From assembly GCA_016550425.1 (NCBI GenBank), contig JABXGS010000243.1:1-10173 (forward strand): 10,173 nt of DNA, read 5' to 3'. The stretch comes from an archaeon (GTDB lineage: Archaea > Asgardarchaeota > Hermodarchaeia > Hermodarchaeales > Hermodarchaeaceae). The notes under the pieces are model-generated. The model ran no database searches. It saw only the letters and a program-made list of their open reading frames with translations, and had not been told where the DNA came from. Below are positions 2,068-10,173 of the stretch, one piece after another (the first letter of the stretch is position 1; every line of letters starts with the position of its first letter). The translations under genes and the position numbers were made by a program.

Positions 2068-3009
2068 GTGAGTACTACCCGGCTTGGCCGCGTTGCTAAA
2101 GAGGCACTGCTCCTCATTCGGAAATTTATGGGTCAGGGCGATTTCCAACGGGCATCCAATGCAGCCCTCAACGCGGCAGAAGCCTTCAACGAAATGGCCA
2201 AGCACTCCTCTGGATCCTCTTCCAAGCTTGCCTATCAACGAGCCCGGACCCTGGTGGAAATCACCAAAGCTCTAAGACGTGAAGAACCTCTACCCGTCCA
2301 TCTGGTTGACGCGCTGGACAGTTTCTTCCTTGAAGACAAAGAACCGCTACCCCCGCCACCGGTCAATGAAGAAGAATCACCAGTCCTAGAAACCACATCT
2401 ACAGAAGACTCTGATGAATCGATGGAGCTCGAATCCGTCTTGCAAACCTCAGAAGCGATGGAGCCGACACTTCACCAACTACTCAATGGAATTTCCATTG
2501 CTTGCACACTTGTTGAAATGCTAGAACGCGCAACCCAAAGCATTCGAATTATGGTCCAAAATCTGACTGATGTCAAAACAATTGCCATTGGCACGGACTC
2601 CTGTGAAGTAAACCTCCTAGATCGGCTAATCGCAAAAGCGAACGAAGGTGTAAAAATCCGCATTATTATCCGCGAACCCGAAGCATTTGGTGCGGCTTCT
2701 AAGCACTTCCAAGAAGCTGTCGAAAAACTCCTCCAAGAAAGCCCAGCCATAGAAATCTTGGTGTGTGCTCAAATGCATATCAAATCCCTCATCGTTGATG
2801 AAACAGAAGTCCTTGAAGGTAGTGCGAATTTTACCGCGAAAGGGTTATCCGGAATTGGTGAACAAGCCACATGGACAAACAATTCTGAGTTTGTAGCCAA
2901 GTTTATACAACGATTTGATCAATATTGGATTCATCAAAGTTCTGAATGCACTGCATGCAAAAATAGAACTTGTGAGGTCCATCCATTAACTCGCCGTACG
3001 CCCCCATAA
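2068..3009 (+). CDS. Single-HKD phospholipase D-like protein with helical N-terminus
   Basis: The start is GTG 2068, six bases after AAGGGG (2056-2061); the ATG at 2066 is out of frame and meets TGA at once. Layout of the 313 residues: helical region 5-70 with a TPR- or MIT-like hairpin (GDFQRASNAALNAAEAF near 24-40); acidic/proline-rich linker about 88-125; then a PLD-like domain about 132-290. The catalytic HKD motif reads H237-x-K239-x4-D244 and is followed by GSANFT (251-256), the usual G-S-x-N segment of the family. Only one HKD is present, so an active enzyme would have to dimerise, as Nuc-type and other one-motif members do. The end has C294-x2-C297-x4-C302-x2-H305, a possible metal site. 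Substrate cannot be told: nucleic acid or phospholipid are both possible. The N-terminus suggests a protein-protein adaptor. No signal peptide, so probably cytosolic. Confidence 0.8.
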   Translation: MSTTRLGRVAKEALLLIRKFMGQGDFQRASNAALNAAEAFNEMAKHSSGSSSKLAYQRARTLVEITKALRREEPLPVHLVDALDSFFLEDKEPLPPPPVNEEESPVLETTSTEDSDESMELESVLQTSEAMEPTLHQLLNGISIACTLVEMLERATQSIRIMVQNLTDVKTIAIGTDSCEVNLLDRLIAKANEGVKIRIIIREPEAFGAASKHFQEAVEKLLQESPAIEILVCAQMHIKSLIVDETEVLEGSANFTAKGLSGIGEQATWTNNSEFVAKFIQRFDQYWIHQSSECTACKNRTCEVHPLTRRTPP

Positions 3010-5084: not shown

Positions 5085-5420
5085 ATGAACAAACCCAAAG
5101 AGTTCAATGGCAAATCGTTTTTATTCGAACAGGGTGAATTGGAGACCAAACTAAAACGGCGTGGACCGGGGCGAGGAATCGGAGAAAAACGAATCAACCA
5201 AGAACGGCTGGATATGTTGAAAACTCTTTTTCAAAATCTCGAAAATATTCATAGATTTCTTATCCAAGAGGGGCATTCCATAATCAATGAGAGTGGTTCA
5301 ATTCTTTCATCTGGATCACATGATAATCTTGACCAGATGTTGGTGCTTCTTGAGGATTTTCTGTGGACTCTCAACTGTTCTATTGCAAAAAATGGAGGTG
5401 ACCCACGGCTTCTTAGATAA
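5085..5420 (+). CDS. Small helical hypothetical protein
   Basis: Translation start is secure because of the AGGAGG at 5073-5078. The 111-residue protein has a basic, glycine-rich patch (about 22-36, KLKRRGPGRGIGEKR) that could touch nucleic acid, then two predicted amphipathic helices (about 40-65 and 80-102) joined by a Ser/Gly turn. No family is recognised. It lies 21 bp downstream of the double winged-helix gene on the same strand, so the two probably share a transcript and it may be that regulator's partner. Its last 8 bp overlap the end of the converging nuclease-like gene. Confidence 0.7.
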   Translation: MNKPKEFNGKSFLFEQGELETKLKRRGPGRGIGEKRINQERLDMLKTLFQNLENIHRFLIQEGHSIINESGSILSSGSHDNLDQMLVLLEDFLWTLNCSIAKNGGDPRLLR

Positions 5421-6135
5421 GGCGCGTTTGGTGACCAAAACTCGGTCGAATGGCATATACCTGGTCTATCTGCTTTTCAAAGTTGAGAAGAAAGGCGTTT
5501 AAGAGTGCAGCAGGCACGATGGGGATCTGCTCATGAAAGTGGATGTCTTCAGTAAGCATGGTTACCAGCATCGGTATCAAGATGGGTGCCGTCCAATCTA
5601 GGCAACCAAGATCTGCCTGAAACTTCGCAAAATTCATTGCAAGAACCTCAGTACGCTCCTTCTGAGCCTCCGCAGCATTTCGGAGACTAGTAGCTTTTCC
5701 TAACCGCACTCCATACTGCTTACAGTCAATAGAAAACAATACAGGTTGACGACCAGCAACAATATCGATTTCATACCGACGCTTGCGAGAGAAACGAAAT
5801 CGATGACAAACATGGAACTCGTGAAATATTAGCACTCGTGCAACGAATTGTTCGAATTCTTGCCAGGTTAAAGCTGAAAGGACTGGGCGATTTGGCTCCC
5901 CCAATTGGAGGGCTCGAATCGCTACGCGAACCTTAGAGTATCCTGAGAACATCCATTGGGTTTTTTCTCTTTGAAGAAGCTGTGCAGATTCTAATGAATG
6001 GAGAAAAGACGAATTTTGAATCATATCGGGAAGTTGTCTAGTTTGAAAGGAACTTTCTCCTTTCGTTGCTATCAATAGCGATCGAAGCTGTGATCCCTCA
6101 TTGAACGATGAGAGGATTTGTTCCTCGTGATTCAT
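5413..6135 (-). CDS. PD-(D/E)XK nuclease-like protein (Mrr/RecB-type fold)
   Basis: ATG at 6135 is the first start after an in-frame TGA; a GAGGTGAT lies about 14 bases ahead, rather far for a ribosome site. The 240 residues divide into a likely winged-helix N-terminus (about 4-75) and a restriction-endonuclease-like core (about 88-195). In the core WQEFEQFVARVL (91-102) supplies the first-helix acidic residue (E93 or E96), YEIDIVAG (121-128) carries D124, and SIDCKQYG (135-142) carries D137-x-K139. Together these match the E...D...(D/E)xK active-site pattern of the Mrr, RecB-like and Holliday-resolvase group. Key residues look intact, so DNA cleavage is plausible. No methyltransferase or restriction partner is nearby. 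It follows the Roadblock gene by 54 bp, same strand, perhaps co-transcribed. A T6 run on its strand (5392-5387) about 21 bp past the stop may end its transcript inside the opposing gene. Confidence 0.7.
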   Translation of the reverse strand: MNHEEQILSSFNEGSQLRSLLIATKGESSFQTRQLPDMIQNSSFLHSLESAQLLQREKTQWMFSGYSKVRVAIRALQLGEPNRPVLSALTWQEFEQFVARVLIFHEFHVCHRFRFSRKRRYEIDIVAGRQPVLFSIDCKQYGVRLGKATSLRNAAEAQKERTEVLAMNFAKFQADLGCLDWTAPILIPMLVTMLTEDIHFHEQIPIVPAALLNAFLLNFEKQIDQVYAIRPSFGHQTRLI

Positions 6136-6189: not shown

Positions 6190-6576
6190 CTAGATTTCTA
6201 ATTCGCGGAGGGTTTCACGGATTTTTCGTAGAGCGTTATTGACTTCTCGAATAAAGAATCGTGTATTCCGTGGAACCAAAGCGGCTAGTACAACAGGTCG
6301 GTCATCTTCCAGCAGAGTAGACTTACAAACTAAAGTACCTTTTTCACACCGTATTGTAATATCCCGAATCATTCCTAGCTTGAGTTCGTCTCGCGCTCGG
6401 TCTGCCGTATCAAAGACATAACTCCCCATTGCTGCCGCTACTTTTTCATCGACTCCACGACTCACAGCTGAAGCAATGACAAATCCTTCATCTGTGGCAA
6501 TGATACTAGCTTTGACACGGTCAGTCTTATTCAATTTCTCCAAGATTCCTGTGAGTGAATGCAACGTTGAGGGCAT
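6190..6576 (-). CDS. Roadblock/LC7 domain protein
   Basis: Roadblock/LC7 proteins are small dimers that bind and regulate Ras-like GTPases (MglB in bacteria; dynein light chains and Ragulator subunits in eukaryotes) and are greatly expanded in Asgard archaea. The whole 128-residue protein is this domain: starting helix STLHSLTGILEKLNK, strand pair KASIIATDEGFVIASAV, central helix EKVAAAMGSYVFDTADRA, strands DITIRCEKGTLVCKS and PVVLAALV, and a closing helix. I chose ATG 6576 because GGAGG (6588-6584) lies seven bases upstream; a TTG at 6597 would add seven residues on the wrong side of that site. No GTPase gene is in the window, so the partner must be elsewhere. It leads a probable two-gene transcript with the nuclease-like gene and has its own TATA box. 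Confidence 0.88.
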   Translation of the reverse strand: MPSTLHSLTGILEKLNKTDRVKASIIATDEGFVIASAVSRGVDEKVAAAMGSYVFDTADRARDELKLGMIRDITIRCEKGTLVCKSTLLEDDRPVVLAALVPRNTRFFIREVNNALRKIRETLRELEI

Positions 6577-6583
6577 ACCAGAT

Positions 6584-6588
6584 CCTCC
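6584..6588 (-). promoter_or_regulatory. Shine-Dalgarno site that sets the Roadblock start
   Basis: GGAGG on the minus strand, seven bases before ATG 6576. It lies downstream of the alternative TTG start at 6597 and so rules that start out. Confidence 0.75.
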
Positions 6589-6634
6589 GATATCCAATAA
6601 TCTCCGCTGTACTACTTCCTAATTCGCATAACCG

Positions 6635-6748: not shown

Positions 6749-7354
6749 ATGAGCCTAGCTCTCCATCAGATCTGGATAATCATCACAACTATGATCTTGA
6801 CAGGTTGTAGTCTTGTCCTCCTTTTCTTCCGCCACCGAATTCCCGGATTCTTCGAGTACAACGAATCGTTCCTCTCGCTTTTTGGCATCGAATCTAATCA
6901 GGCTAACTGGGTTCGTTACCTGTTTAACTGGGCCATAGGCACATGCATGGCCACTGTCGTGTATACCCTTATCATCAACGTCAATGAAAATCTCCTTATC
7001 CTTACAGGGCTTAGGGGGATTCCCCTTGATTTAGTCATCATTCCCCTCGCCATCATTAGCATTATCTTATCGATTCTGCTTATTTCCGCGGCTCTCGTAC
7101 CGATGCTTATTGTCCCGTTGGTCCCCCCTTCCGCCTTGGGTATTCTTCTCATTCTCCAGTTCTATGGAATACACCCAAGCTCCTTCACCATAACAAGTCT
7201 TTCTTCGGCTTTCATCTACTTTGCTGCTAGCGCAATCGGCTTTGTCGGAGCTATTCTGGCTCTTTATCATCTTATACGTACTTATTTCGGGGTGTCACTT
7301 TCACACTACTTTCAACAACGACGCAAGGAAACCAGTTCCGTTAGTACTAATTAA
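6749..7354 (+). CDS. Hypothetical multi-pass membrane protein
   Basis: ATG 6749 follows AGAGGT by eight bases. The 201-residue product is strongly hydrophobic, with predicted membrane segments at about 7-27, 56-77, 94-118, 119-139 and 150-176. A polar, aromatic loop (about 29-55) follows the first segment, and the end is a basic cytoplasmic tail (FQQRRKE at 188-194). No catalytic motif or transporter signature is seen, and a Cys at residue 20 lies inside the first segment without a convincing lipobox. It is divergent from the Roadblock gene and convergent with the histone gene. Family and role are unknown; a small integral membrane protein is all that can be said. Confidence 0.75.
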   Translation: MSLALHQIWIIITTMILTGCSLVLLFFRHRIPGFFEYNESFLSLFGIESNQANWVRYLFNWAIGTCMATVVYTLIINVNENLLILTGLRGIPLDLVIIPLAIISIILSILLISAALVPMLIVPLVPPSALGILLILQFYGIHPSSFTITSLSSAFIYFAASAIGFVGAILALYHLIRTYFGVSLSHYFQQRRKETSSVSTN

Positions 7355-7442: not shown

Positions 7443-7470
7443 TTTAGTTAATAGTGTGAGATTAACTAAA
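7443..7470. terminator. Hairpin at the histone 3' end
   Basis: TTTAGTTAAT (7443-7452) and ATTAACTAAA (7461-7470) form a perfect 10-bp stem with an 8-base loop. The histone TAG stop (7468-7466) lies inside one arm. The stem is AT-rich with no long T tract after it, so it may act as a 3'-end or stability element rather than a classic terminator; it would form in transcripts from both sides. Confidence 0.45.
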
Positions 7471-7684
7471 AGTCGTAAGCCATCAACGTTTTTCGCTTGT
7501 TGGCTTTGGCCCGATGAGTTGCCTTTGTGATGAGTGCCTCGACAGCATCATCGATCGCTTGATAAGCATCACCGGAAACATTGAAACCCATTTTGTGGGC
7601 CTTTGCCGCTATGGCTTTCTTTACAATTTTATCAACGGCCAATTTGGTTTCCTCCAACTTGAAGAAACGGCTTCTCCTCAACAC
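7466..7684 (-). CDS. Archaeal histone-fold protein with short helix 3
   Basis: The 72-residue product is a single histone fold: helix 1 region about 12-32 (ETKLAVDKIVKKAIAAKAHK), the segment NVSGDAYQAIDDAVEALITKATHRAKAN (35-62) containing the long helix 2, then the conserved R-K-T (64-66) and YDF at the end. Canonical archaeal histones have the same R-K-T-x4-D but continue about ten residues as helix 3; here the protein stops at D-F. The short helix 3, together with the VSGDAYxA and KATxRAKANxRKT motifs, resembles 'face-to-face' prokaryotic histones such as Bdellovibrio Bd0055, from memory. It should bind DNA as a dimer or tetramer, but may not build the canonical hypernucleosome. No ATG is available in frame: GTG 7684 is used here, TTG 7681 or TTG 7657 are possible, and none has a Shine-Dalgarno site. 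It has its own strong TATA box. Confidence 0.85.
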   Translation of the reverse strand: MLRRSRFFKLEETKLAVDKIVKKAIAAKAHKMGFNVSGDAYQAIDDAVEALITKATHRAKANKRKTLMAYDF

Positions 7685-7803: not shown

Positions 7804-8346
7804 CTATGGTATTCGAAAATTAAGACCTTGTTCCTCTAGTGCCTTTTTCAATATTCGTTGTCGTTCTTCGAAATTTCGGATTGCTTCACCCAGCATTGGC
7901 AGTAAATCCAAGTCCGCTCCCTTGAAAGTTCTGTTCAGGTTTTCGAAGGCAGGTATCATATCAGCACAAATTTGTTGAGCACCTACAGCTGCCATCAGCA
8001 ACTCATTTCGCTGCTTTACTGTTTTCGCTATTTCGCTTTCCGCTAGAAACCAATAAAACACACTTTTAGTGAGTTTAAACGCCCATAGAATGCCAAAGAA
8101 TTGCCACATTTGAGCTGTGGGATCTTTCGGCATTTCTAGGAGTTGTTGAAGAATCTTCCCTACTTCCTTACGTGCTTCCTCAAATTGCTCCCTAGCTGCT
8201 TCGAATCGTCCATGCTTAGCTAATTCACTGCCCGTATTCATTATTTCAAAATAGCGTTTAGGCAACGCATGAATCATTTCCAAGGTACGTGCTTCTTCGA
8301 TTCGTTCCCTATTATTAGTCGGTTCTTTTTCGGGCACGCCGCACAT
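7804..8346 (-). CDS. Helical TPR-like protein, partner of the longin-like protein
   Basis: The 180-residue product is almost wholly helical with no membrane segment. Residues 39-60 fit the A-x2-G-x-F-x2-A-x3-F-x2-A pattern of a tetratricopeptide repeat (LAKHGRFEAAREQFEEARK). Further helices lie at about 77-105 (Trp/Phe-rich, WQFFGILWAF), 110-140 and 145-173. ATG 8346 lies 32 bp inside the upstream longin-like gene; AAGGGGG is only about two bases ahead of it, so GTG 8337 (11 bases after) is a fair alternative. The overlap implies coupled translation, which usually means the two products bind each other. A scaffold or adaptor role is inference; no enzyme motif is seen. Confidence 0.72.
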   Translation of the reverse strand: MCGVPEKEPTNNRERIEEARTLEMIHALPKRYFEIMNTGSELAKHGRFEAAREQFEEARKEVGKILQQLLEMPKDPTAQMWQFFGILWAFKLTKSVFYWFLAESEIAKTVKQRNELLMAAVGAQQICADMIPAFENLNRTFKGADLDLLPMLGEAIRNFEERQRILKKALEEQGLNFRIP

Positions 8347-9349
8347 ATCCCCCTTCTACTGCTAATTCTTTGAAAATGTTATAATCCTCCTTTGATAACC
8401 GTAGGAGGGTTGATGCTTCATCATCGGGAAGGGTTTCTGATTGTGCGAGAAGTTCAGCGACTTCATCAATCCGATTGCGCAATGTAAGAAAAGCCATTTC
8501 AGCGACTTTTCGGAGCTCAGCACCACTTTCCCCCAACACTTTTTCAGAATGGGCGACGGAATCGGCGATTTTCAAAGACCGACTTTCAAATCCCACCGGT
8601 AGCACGATATGCTCTTCGACGAGTAAACATACATATACGAGTCCCATGGTTGCAGAATCCGCGAAGGTTTCTTCATAGGCTCGATTTGGTAGGCTAAGAA
8701 TAAAGGACATATTCGCAGGGCGATCTTGCAGGACTTGAAGGGCAGCTCCTGCATCTTCAAAATACATCACTGGAATTCGCCGACGTCGCATAGTCTGAAG
8801 AGCCCGGATAACTGACTGGTTCCGTGTTTTTCGTCCCACTACCAGAATTGGTGCTCCTCGAAGAAGACCATAGAGGAGGATGTCCAATCCTGGTCCAAAT
8901 CGTCGCCAAAGGCGAATGATTGCAGGACGGAGATCCATTTCTTTTTTGGGTTTTTCAAAAGTTGGTAAATAATCTTGAACAACTTCTCTGGCAACGGGAT
9001 TGAAATCTCGAAATGGAGCGACTTCTCCTGTCCAACTACGAAGCTCCTTTTGATATCGGTCAAGGAATAACGCGTTTAGAGTTTTTAATACAGCCATAAT
9101 TGAAACGTCATCATCTTCTCGATCCGCAAGGGCTACACTTAGTACCGGGTCCGCTAGGTCCCATACAAATTGGAAATTACCCGTTTCAATCGTTGTTACA
9201 TCATCTGCCAAAAGATCCTGGCCAAACATTCGGAGGGCTGATAGAAATCCCGAGACAAGTTCAGGGCTCACCTTCACTTCCATCGGTCCAAATCCGACAG
9301 ACGTGAGAACTAGTCCACTTTTGTGAAAATGATACAGTCGGTGTATCAT
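8315..9349 (-). CDS. Longin-like domain protein with possible DENN-like C-terminal half
   Basis: Residues 1-120 have the strand-strand-helix-strand-strand-helix order of longin domains: IHRLYHFHKSGLVLTSVGF, helix LVSGFLSALRMFGQDLL (31-47), strands FQFVWDLADPVLSVALAD (59-76), long helix 82-103 and a terminal F-x-x-F segment. In eukaryotes these domains occur in SNAREs, TRAPP, Mon1-Ccz1 and folliculin-type GTPase regulators, and they are frequent in Asgard archaea. Residues about 140-260 (helix, then DILLYGLLRGAPILVVG at 156-172, helix, RRIPVMYFED at 190-199) recall the central strand-helix-strand of DENN modules in folliculin/NPRL2-type proteins; this is a pattern judgement only. The end (about 262-340) is helical. 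No signal or membrane segment is seen. ATG 9349 starts directly on the first longin strand, with a TATA box just upstream. It overlaps the TPR-like gene. Confidence 0.65.
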   Translation of the reverse strand: MIHRLYHFHKSGLVLTSVGFGPMEVKVSPELVSGFLSALRMFGQDLLADDVTTIETGNFQFVWDLADPVLSVALADREDDDVSIMAVLKTLNALFLDRYQKELRSWTGEVAPFRDFNPVAREVVQDYLPTFEKPKKEMDLRPAIIRLWRRFGPGLDILLYGLLRGAPILVVGRKTRNQSVIRALQTMRRRRIPVMYFEDAGAALQVLQDRPANMSFILSLPNRAYEETFADSATMGLVYVCLLVEEHIVLPVGFESRSLKIADSVAHSEKVLGESGAELRKVAEMAFLTLRNRIDEVAELLAQSETLPDDEASTLLRLSKEDYNIFKELAVEGGYVRRARKRTD

Positions 9350-9468: not shown

Positions 9469-10173
9469 CTAAAGTGAACGTTGCGTTCGACGTAACCAGA
9501 GTGCACGAACTAATAATGTAATAACCACAATTAGGATCACGGCTGCAATCACGGCGACAATGATGATGGGCCAAGGACTTGGTGCCGGAACTAAGGCGAC
9601 AGTCGTATTTAGGACTTCATAGTAATAAGTCAAGGATGTGGCAATGGAATCGATGGTAACTACGGTGGTCTCATTAGCCTGATAGTAAATTCCCACATCG
9701 TGATCAATAACGTAGGTGGTGTCAATTATTTGGTTTGGAGCTGTACTGCTGTTAAAGAGTCGGTAGCACAATTGTTCAGTACCGCTGGCTATTACCGTTG
9801 TGTGGGTCACGGTTTGCCAAAGGCTTCCTCCTATTATTTGGTTCGAACCAATTGTGATGGTGCTTAGAGTATTATCGTCGAGGAAGAATCCGGGGAGTCC
9901 TTGGGATGTCGGGTACTCTACTAATCCTGAACTGACGCCTGGGGGGGCTGGGGCTGGAACCGATCCATTTAATGTAATTGTCGTTTCCCATGTACTGTTT
10001 GATATCACGACGATGTTGCTGAAGATGGTGACCGAGAAGTTGTAAAACGCTTGGATATTCGGGCCACTTGGGATTAGATGTGAGACACGGATTGACAAAT
10101 TCGTAACTTGATGCCAGTTCATTGTATAGTTGCTTTCTGCTAATGATAGAGTCGTCCAGTAAGCAATATCTGC
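9469..10173 (-). CDS. Membrane-anchored surface protein, 5' partial
   Basis: The frame is open to the right edge of the window (17 further codons before the ATG at 10122, no stop), so the visible 234 residues are the C-terminal part of a larger exported protein. The outer part is rich in Thr, Ser, Asn and Tyr with seven N-x-S/T sequons and beta-strand character. It includes a Pro/Ala-rich spacer (about 72-79 of the fragment) and TYYYEVLNTT near the membrane. A Pro-rich stalk (PAPSPWP) precedes a clear membrane helix at fragment residues about 201-222 (IIIVAVIAAVILIVVITLL), and a short basic tail (RALWLRRTQRSL) closes it. Such proteins are common on archaeal cell surfaces; ligand and family are not recognised. 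It is unrelated by eye to the surface protein at the left edge except for the same anchor layout. Confidence 0.8.
   Translation of the reverse strand, partial: ADIAYWTTLSLAESNYTMNWHQVTNLSIRVSHLIPSGPNIQAFYNFSVTIFSNIVVISNSTWETTITLNGSVPAPAPPGVSSGLVEYPTSQGLPGFFLDDNTLSTITIGSNQIIGGSLWQTVTHTTVIASGTEQLCYRLFNSSTAPNQIIDTTYVIDHDVGIYYQANETTVVTIDSIATSLTYYYEVLNTTVALVPAPSPWPIIIVAVIAAVILIVVITLLVRALWLRRTQRSL

Follow-up and report, generated by a model that had tools for sequence, protein, structure and literature searches.

Does an archaeal genome encode a longin-DENN protein, of the kind found in the FLCN/C9orf72-like regulators known from eukaryotes? These regulators act on membrane switches. The question is raised by a 10,173-nucleotide stretch of DNA (the window; contig JABXGS010000243.1 of assembly GCA_016550425.1) from a Hermodarchaeia genome; Hermodarchaeia belong to the Asgard archaea, which are related to complex cells. 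An original prediction, made from the letters alone, had proposed that two genes sharing a 32-bp overlap encode a longin protein with a DENN-like segment and a TPR-like partner, with a Roadblock protein encoded about 1.7 kb away. Both open reading frames (ORFs), each with an ATG start, and their shared stretch were confirmed; we designated the larger product LD-A and the smaller one the partner, with the following features:

8315..9349, minus strand: LD-A, predicted longin-DENN protein, 344 residues (ORF; homologs; AlphaFold model; PDB fold matches)
8960..9349, minus strand: predicted longin domain of LD-A, residues 1-130
8330..8926, minus strand: predicted DENN core and helical tail of LD-A, residues 142-340
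9119..9121, minus strand: Arg77 codon of LD-A, in the longin loop that joins strand 5 to helix 2; possible functional residue
7804..8346, minus strand: partner, 180 residues, all-helical (six helices in the model), frame overlapping LD-A
8315..8346, minus strand: overlap of the LD-A and partner frames, 32 bp (23 bp if GTG is the true partner start)

We consider it probable that LD-A is a longin-DENN protein related to the FLCN/C9orf72/SMCR8/DENND group, one that would work in a like manner with a GTPase platform, the partner and a second protein, LD-B. A search of 5.8 billion proteins (E ≤ 1e-3) returned 41 homologs of LD-A and 49 of the partner, in each case with the window's own protein among them (37 of the 41 form our LD-A member set A1, and 41 of the 49 the partner set A2); since homologs of each were found and the pair is conserved, the two ORFs are not chance frames. 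The best AlphaFold model of LD-A (predicted local distance difference test score, pLDDT, 83; predicted template modeling score, pTM, 0.77) has an N-terminal longin domain followed by a central alpha/beta DENN core that lacks a P-loop. Residues 142-340 were modeled as helix-helix-strand-helix-strand-helix-strand, and the C-terminal helices (261-270, 277-303, 309-315, 320-332, and 335-343) aligned inside the DENN matches as part of a larger region, where a d-DENN would be expected. In a Foldseek search of the PDB with this model the first seven matches were chains of FLCN complexes or DENND proteins, and among the 50 VIA matches listed only DENN proteins started after residue 100, with 175-186 residues aligned. 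The model and the PDB matches support the predicted longin N-terminus and the DENN-like fold expected of residues 140-344, and they point to 8315-9349 encoding a genuine prokaryotic longin-DENN protein.

A profile of LD-A found, in the same genomes, the second full-length protein of about 350 residues that we call LD-B (set A7, comprising 28 of 36 LD-B proteins and 4 loci). It was matched from profile position 2 to 329-341 with E-values of 3.5e-36 to 9.3e-28 (small set), and hhalign scored the two families at 99.8% over 326 columns; LD-A and LD-B are, by these sequence comparisons, homologous, LD-B being a paralog whose gene lies apart from LD-A in most of the genomes concerned. Each occurs in 7 genomes, and both in 6 of the 8 having either. 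At E ≤ 0.01 the LD-A profile matched, through its longin part, 201 of the 227 Asgard genomes, most of the matches listed ending at positions 113-157, without the DENN part. The DENN part searched alone led to other Asgard genomes with families C (about 330 residues) and D (about 365 residues), and the family-C profile reached further still. A profile of 26 DENN cores (A8; 26 of 27 references, picked for diversity and including members from some of the matched genomes) matched 58 of the 227 genomes when the threshold was E ≤ 1e-19 and 88 when it was E ≤ 1e-4, the 30 weaker genomes being counted by profile score alone; genomes G059-G067 had 7 to 10 DENN-core matches each. Asgard proteins with a DENN core from G059-G067 are encoded in L134, L135, L137, L139, L140, L158, L162-L170, and L181. 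One family has two tandem DENN cores in a protein of about 765 residues; proteins of this kind are encoded in L148 (cut by the contig end), L150, and L160. Family D genes (L107, L108, L110) adjoin sirtuin and acylphosphatase genes (scanned in L107) and a gene for GTP cyclohydrolase II (scanned in L108); near them are also an Arf-like GTPase gene (L107) and a gene with a GTPase motif (L110).

These relatives provide the links in sequence to eukaryotic proteins, whereas LD-A itself matches none of the eukaryotic profiles concerned. Family C matched Folliculin_C in 12 of 16 members (best E-value 9.6e-4), and a further protein passed the Folliculin_C cut-off, once (27.7 bits, cut-off 27; none in 14 control genomes). 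The Folliculin longin profile (PF11704) was over its cut-off in 40 of the 227 Asgard genomes and in none of the 14 controls; in 10 of 20 places examined, of 51 listed, a DENN core lay in the same ORF as the over-cut-off Folliculin longin (L162-L170, L181), five of these ten ORFs coming from a family represented in the profile used and the other five (L167-L170, L181) not. Against 177,635 PDB sequences the 26-core profile placed SMCR8 at ranks 1 and 3, at its DENN core; the E-values were marginal (0.028 and 0.07), and rank 2 went to an unrelated helicase. A profile chain connects LD-A to family C (94.8% over 45 columns), and we place LD-A in this group because of its fold and that chain. On this profile evidence there is an Asgard-wide DENN-core family with links to Folliculin. 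Five places (L171, L172, L175, L176, L177) share a repeated gene row (about 150-164, 99-148, 422-442, 460-467, and 417-419 residues) that includes a Folliculin-longin protein in which no DENN core was found, and all but one of these rows have a gene of about 318 residues with a GTPase motif nearby.

The pairing of the two genes is well preserved. LD-A and its partner are side by side in relatives, namely in all seven GTDB loci, down to 53% LD-A identity, and their frames overlap in 8 of 8 loci (the window and seven others). The overlap length varies with the start chosen: a GTG three codons inward in the window's partner gives 23 bp in place of 32 bp, 23 bp is also possible in L001 (with ATG), L004, L005, and L006, and other possible lengths are 41 bp (L002, L003) and 29 or 47 bp (L007). 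All seven genomes that have LD-A also have the partner, and none of the five genomes lacking LD-A (G069 and G072-G075, listed next to those seven) has it. A complex of the two is the natural reading because of the overlap and this co-occurrence, and the partner is most likely co-produced with LD-A and bound to it. The partner model has six long helices (pLDDT 86). The suggestion that it is TPR-like lost ground: no TPR profile passed the Pfam cut-off in the window's partner (best 16.2 bits, cut-off 32.7), TPR_2 matched 14 of 41 family members at E ≤ 0.1 (best 0.0056), Foldseek gave no match at E ≤ 0.001, and the VIA matches were within the range expected of helical bundles only.

The other genes of the window are as follows:

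9469-10173, minus strand: membrane protein running into the window end; first in transcription order, before LD-A
7466-7684, minus strand: histone-fold-like protein, 72 residues (Pfam Histone E-value 7.1e-5, 23.5 bits, below the cut-off of 26.4)
6749-7354, strand opposite to LD-A: gene between the partner and the Roadblock gene
6190..6597, minus strand: Roadblock/LC7 protein, 135 residues, conserved neighbor (PF03259, 32.9 bits, cut-off 23)
5413-6135, minus strand: Mrr-like nuclease (19.4 bits, below the cut-off of 21)
2068-3009, plus strand: PLD-like protein (67.8 bits, cut-off 27)

On the minus strand transcription would run from the membrane protein through LD-A, the partner and the histone-fold-like gene, with the Roadblock and Mrr-like genes farther on. 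The block from LD-A through the Mrr-like gene is conserved in all seven GTDB loci and the outer genes vary, so linkage alone is weak evidence for partnership. The helical neighbor might be no partner at all, with overlap and linkage reflecting compact, slowly rearranging genomes; the named genomes compared are, moreover, all Hermodarchaeota-like (the named GTDB relatives are Hermodarchaeota metagenome-assembled genomes, and P0085 and P0105 come from one labeled Hodarchaeota). We regard this as a serious though somewhat doubtful alternative, since the partner's is the only frame in the window that overlaps LD-A, the overlap recurs in every locus, and the presence of the partner agrees with that of LD-A in 12 of 12 genomes checked. 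The 72-residue histone-fold-like gene stands beside the pair in 7 of 7 loci, and an alpha-SNAP-like gene lies near the LD-A locus in L099 (6569-7270, minus strand; PF14938, 28.0 bits, cut-off 25), with genes of the same blast cluster near LD-A in L098 and L100 (the Pfam scan was of the L099 copy only). The best NCBIfam models for the PLD-like protein were DpdK and DrmC, both far under their cut-offs.

If LD-A works as a longin-DENN regulator, its longin would be the platform where a Ras/Rab/Arf-like GTPase sits or a second longin pairs, its DENN part would brace the complex, the helical partner would be made together with LD-A and bound to it, and LD-B would be the best candidate for the other longin-DENN subunit of a pair like FLCN-FNIP or C9orf72-SMCR8. 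GTPase regulation, the partner complex and the pairing of LD-A with LD-B are all steps that we infer. Several results weigh against this picture. One AlphaFold model of five was good (83) and the other four scored 65-71, with helix 1 of the longin poorly predicted. LD-A passes no Pfam cut-off, and direct profile matches to the DENN and Folliculin families were lacking: Pfam DENN (PF02141) had no match in LD-A or the 37 members scanned (E ≤ 1), and the Folliculin families (PF11704, PF16692) had none in LD-A (E ≤ 1) and matched other Asgard proteins. The DENN half of LD-A alone matched LD-B weakly (E-values of 1.2e-5 to 0.01, small set); G070 is without LD-B and G069 without LD-A, possibly as incomplete genomes; and one match of the core profile, with a GTPase ORF in L172 (8.5e-4), was spurious, so weak core-profile matches are not proof. 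A P-loop motif scan of the window and of ten fetched LD-A stretches representing seven places (L001-L007, L098-L100) found no small GTPase gene near LD-A, and neither LD-A nor LD-B has a conserved arginine in the loop between longin strands 4 and 5.

That loop is the site of the NPRL2 arginine finger, and single relatives do carry an arginine there (e.g., P0025). Arg77 of LD-A is arginine in 35 and lysine in 1 of 36 LD-A rows and is not arginine in the LD-B rows; it is presumably not at the finger site of FLCN, NPRL2 or SMCR8. Because the strand 4/5 loop of LD-A lacks a conserved arginine and LD-B has none at the place of Arg77, a GTPase-activating protein (GAP) mechanism of the FLCN type appears unsupported by the residues of LD-A, for which a guanine nucleotide exchange factor (GEF) or scaffold role is at least as likely as a GAP role. 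Proteins of family D (L089, L083, L090) and of the L134 type have an arginine in the loop that leads into the last strand of the longin, a position we take to be similar to that of NPRL2 Arg78; family C, LD-A and LD-B have no conserved arginine there. Such an arrangement, with one chain in each genome bearing a finger and another lacking it, would resemble SMCR8-C9orf72. DENN proteins act as Rab GEFs (PMC3521125).

LD-A could also be a pure scaffold that, like DENND10 in Commander, holds a helical protein, GTPase regulation having been lost or never acquired. We think this unlikely in view of the genes nearby, which give hints of a GTPase-directed function. LD-B has a GTPase gene on the same strand at 2.0 kb (L095, L096) or 4.6 kb (L092, where a TnpB-like gene intervenes), with an AAA-type gene of 386-388 residues in between, the one tested belonging to the Ras family (204 bits); in the other three of six LD-B regions the contig ends before this position. 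In 5 of 6 family C loci a convergent GTPase gene stands at a distance of 2.7 to 3.2 kb, the sixth contig ending first, and the one tested is of the Arf family. Roadblock proteins are a standard GTPase platform, and the predicted Roadblock gene was verified by its Pfam score at 1.7 kb from LD-A and 1.2 kb from the partner, on the same side of LD-A in 7 of 7 loci.

Much less likely is a longin fused to an unrelated alpha/beta domain that is DENN-like by general topology only. The DENN core is described in the available text of PMC3521125 as arranged like a minimal P-loop alpha/beta domain, so a chance resemblance could arise, and LD-A lacks a Pfam DENN match; however, the VIA matches beyond residue 100 (50 listed) were all to DENN proteins, the leading Foldseek matches were to FLCN complexes and DENND chains, and a sequence chain runs from LD-A through family C to Folliculin_C and SMCR8. 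That LD-A is a Fuz/Mon1/HPS1-type protein with several longins in a row is scarcely credible: Fuz_longin_1 is the sole Pfam match of its family (33 of 37 members scanned) and Fuzzy and Mon1 complexes are among its fold matches, but Fuzzy aligned over only 126 residues, the size of the first longin, and no second longin was found after it, residues 142-340 being modeled and matched as DENN.

The tripartite DENN module has so far been seen as originating in the eukaryotic stem: Zhang et al. 2012 (PMC3521125) describe its growth by domain accretion early in eukaryotic evolution and assign five to seven types of DENN to the last eukaryotic common ancestor. We give about even chances to a broader proposal, that longin-DENN regulators, including the folliculin type, originated in Asgard archaea and had diversified there before eukaryotes, and that Hermodarchaeota keep a version made of two chains, LD-A accompanied by the helical protein and LD-B encoded close to the gene of a Ras-family GTPase, akin to FLCN-FNIP and C9orf72-SMCR8, so that control of membrane switches was inherited as a working system and not assembled in the eukaryotic stem. 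The DENN cores in 58 to 88 of the Asgard genomes, which both the window family and the Folliculin-positive relatives combine with a longin, would put the origin of this regulator class in an archaeal ancestor, and the compact Asgard proteins allow exchange, hydrolysis and pairing to be tested outside eukaryotes. In the open full-text literature we found no paper joining Asgard archaea with DENN or SMCR8, or prokaryotes with longin-DENN; priority of the Asgard DENN/Folliculin finding is uncertain because preprints and subscription papers lie outside that search and the Pfam Folliculin matches in Asgard are open to anyone. A preprint on a structure-based screen of Asgard proteins reportedly exists and might list DENN folds.

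Compared with FLCN/FNIP2, LD-A is compact at 344 residues and matches neither Folliculin Pfam family; its overlapping partner is helical and not a second longin-DENN protein, and it has no conserved arginine at what we take to be the finger site. C9orf72-SMCR8 is an ARF GAP in which the two longins form a pocket and Arg147 of SMCR8 is the finger (available text of PMC8213707), whereas no such residue was identified in LD-A. DENND10 and DENND1, DENN proteins of the Rab-GEF type, differ from LD-A in that it is prokaryotic and has no PF02141 match. Longin, Roadblock and TRAPPC3 proteins have been described from Asgard archaea (PMC10933270), the term DENN being absent from that paper. NPRL2-NPRL3 (GATOR1) resemble LD-A in having a longin followed by a C-terminal region, and are GTPase regulators; the DENN part of NPR2/NPR3 is abbreviated or absent and there is a triad of winged helices (available text of PMC3521125), whereas the model of LD-A contains a DENN core.
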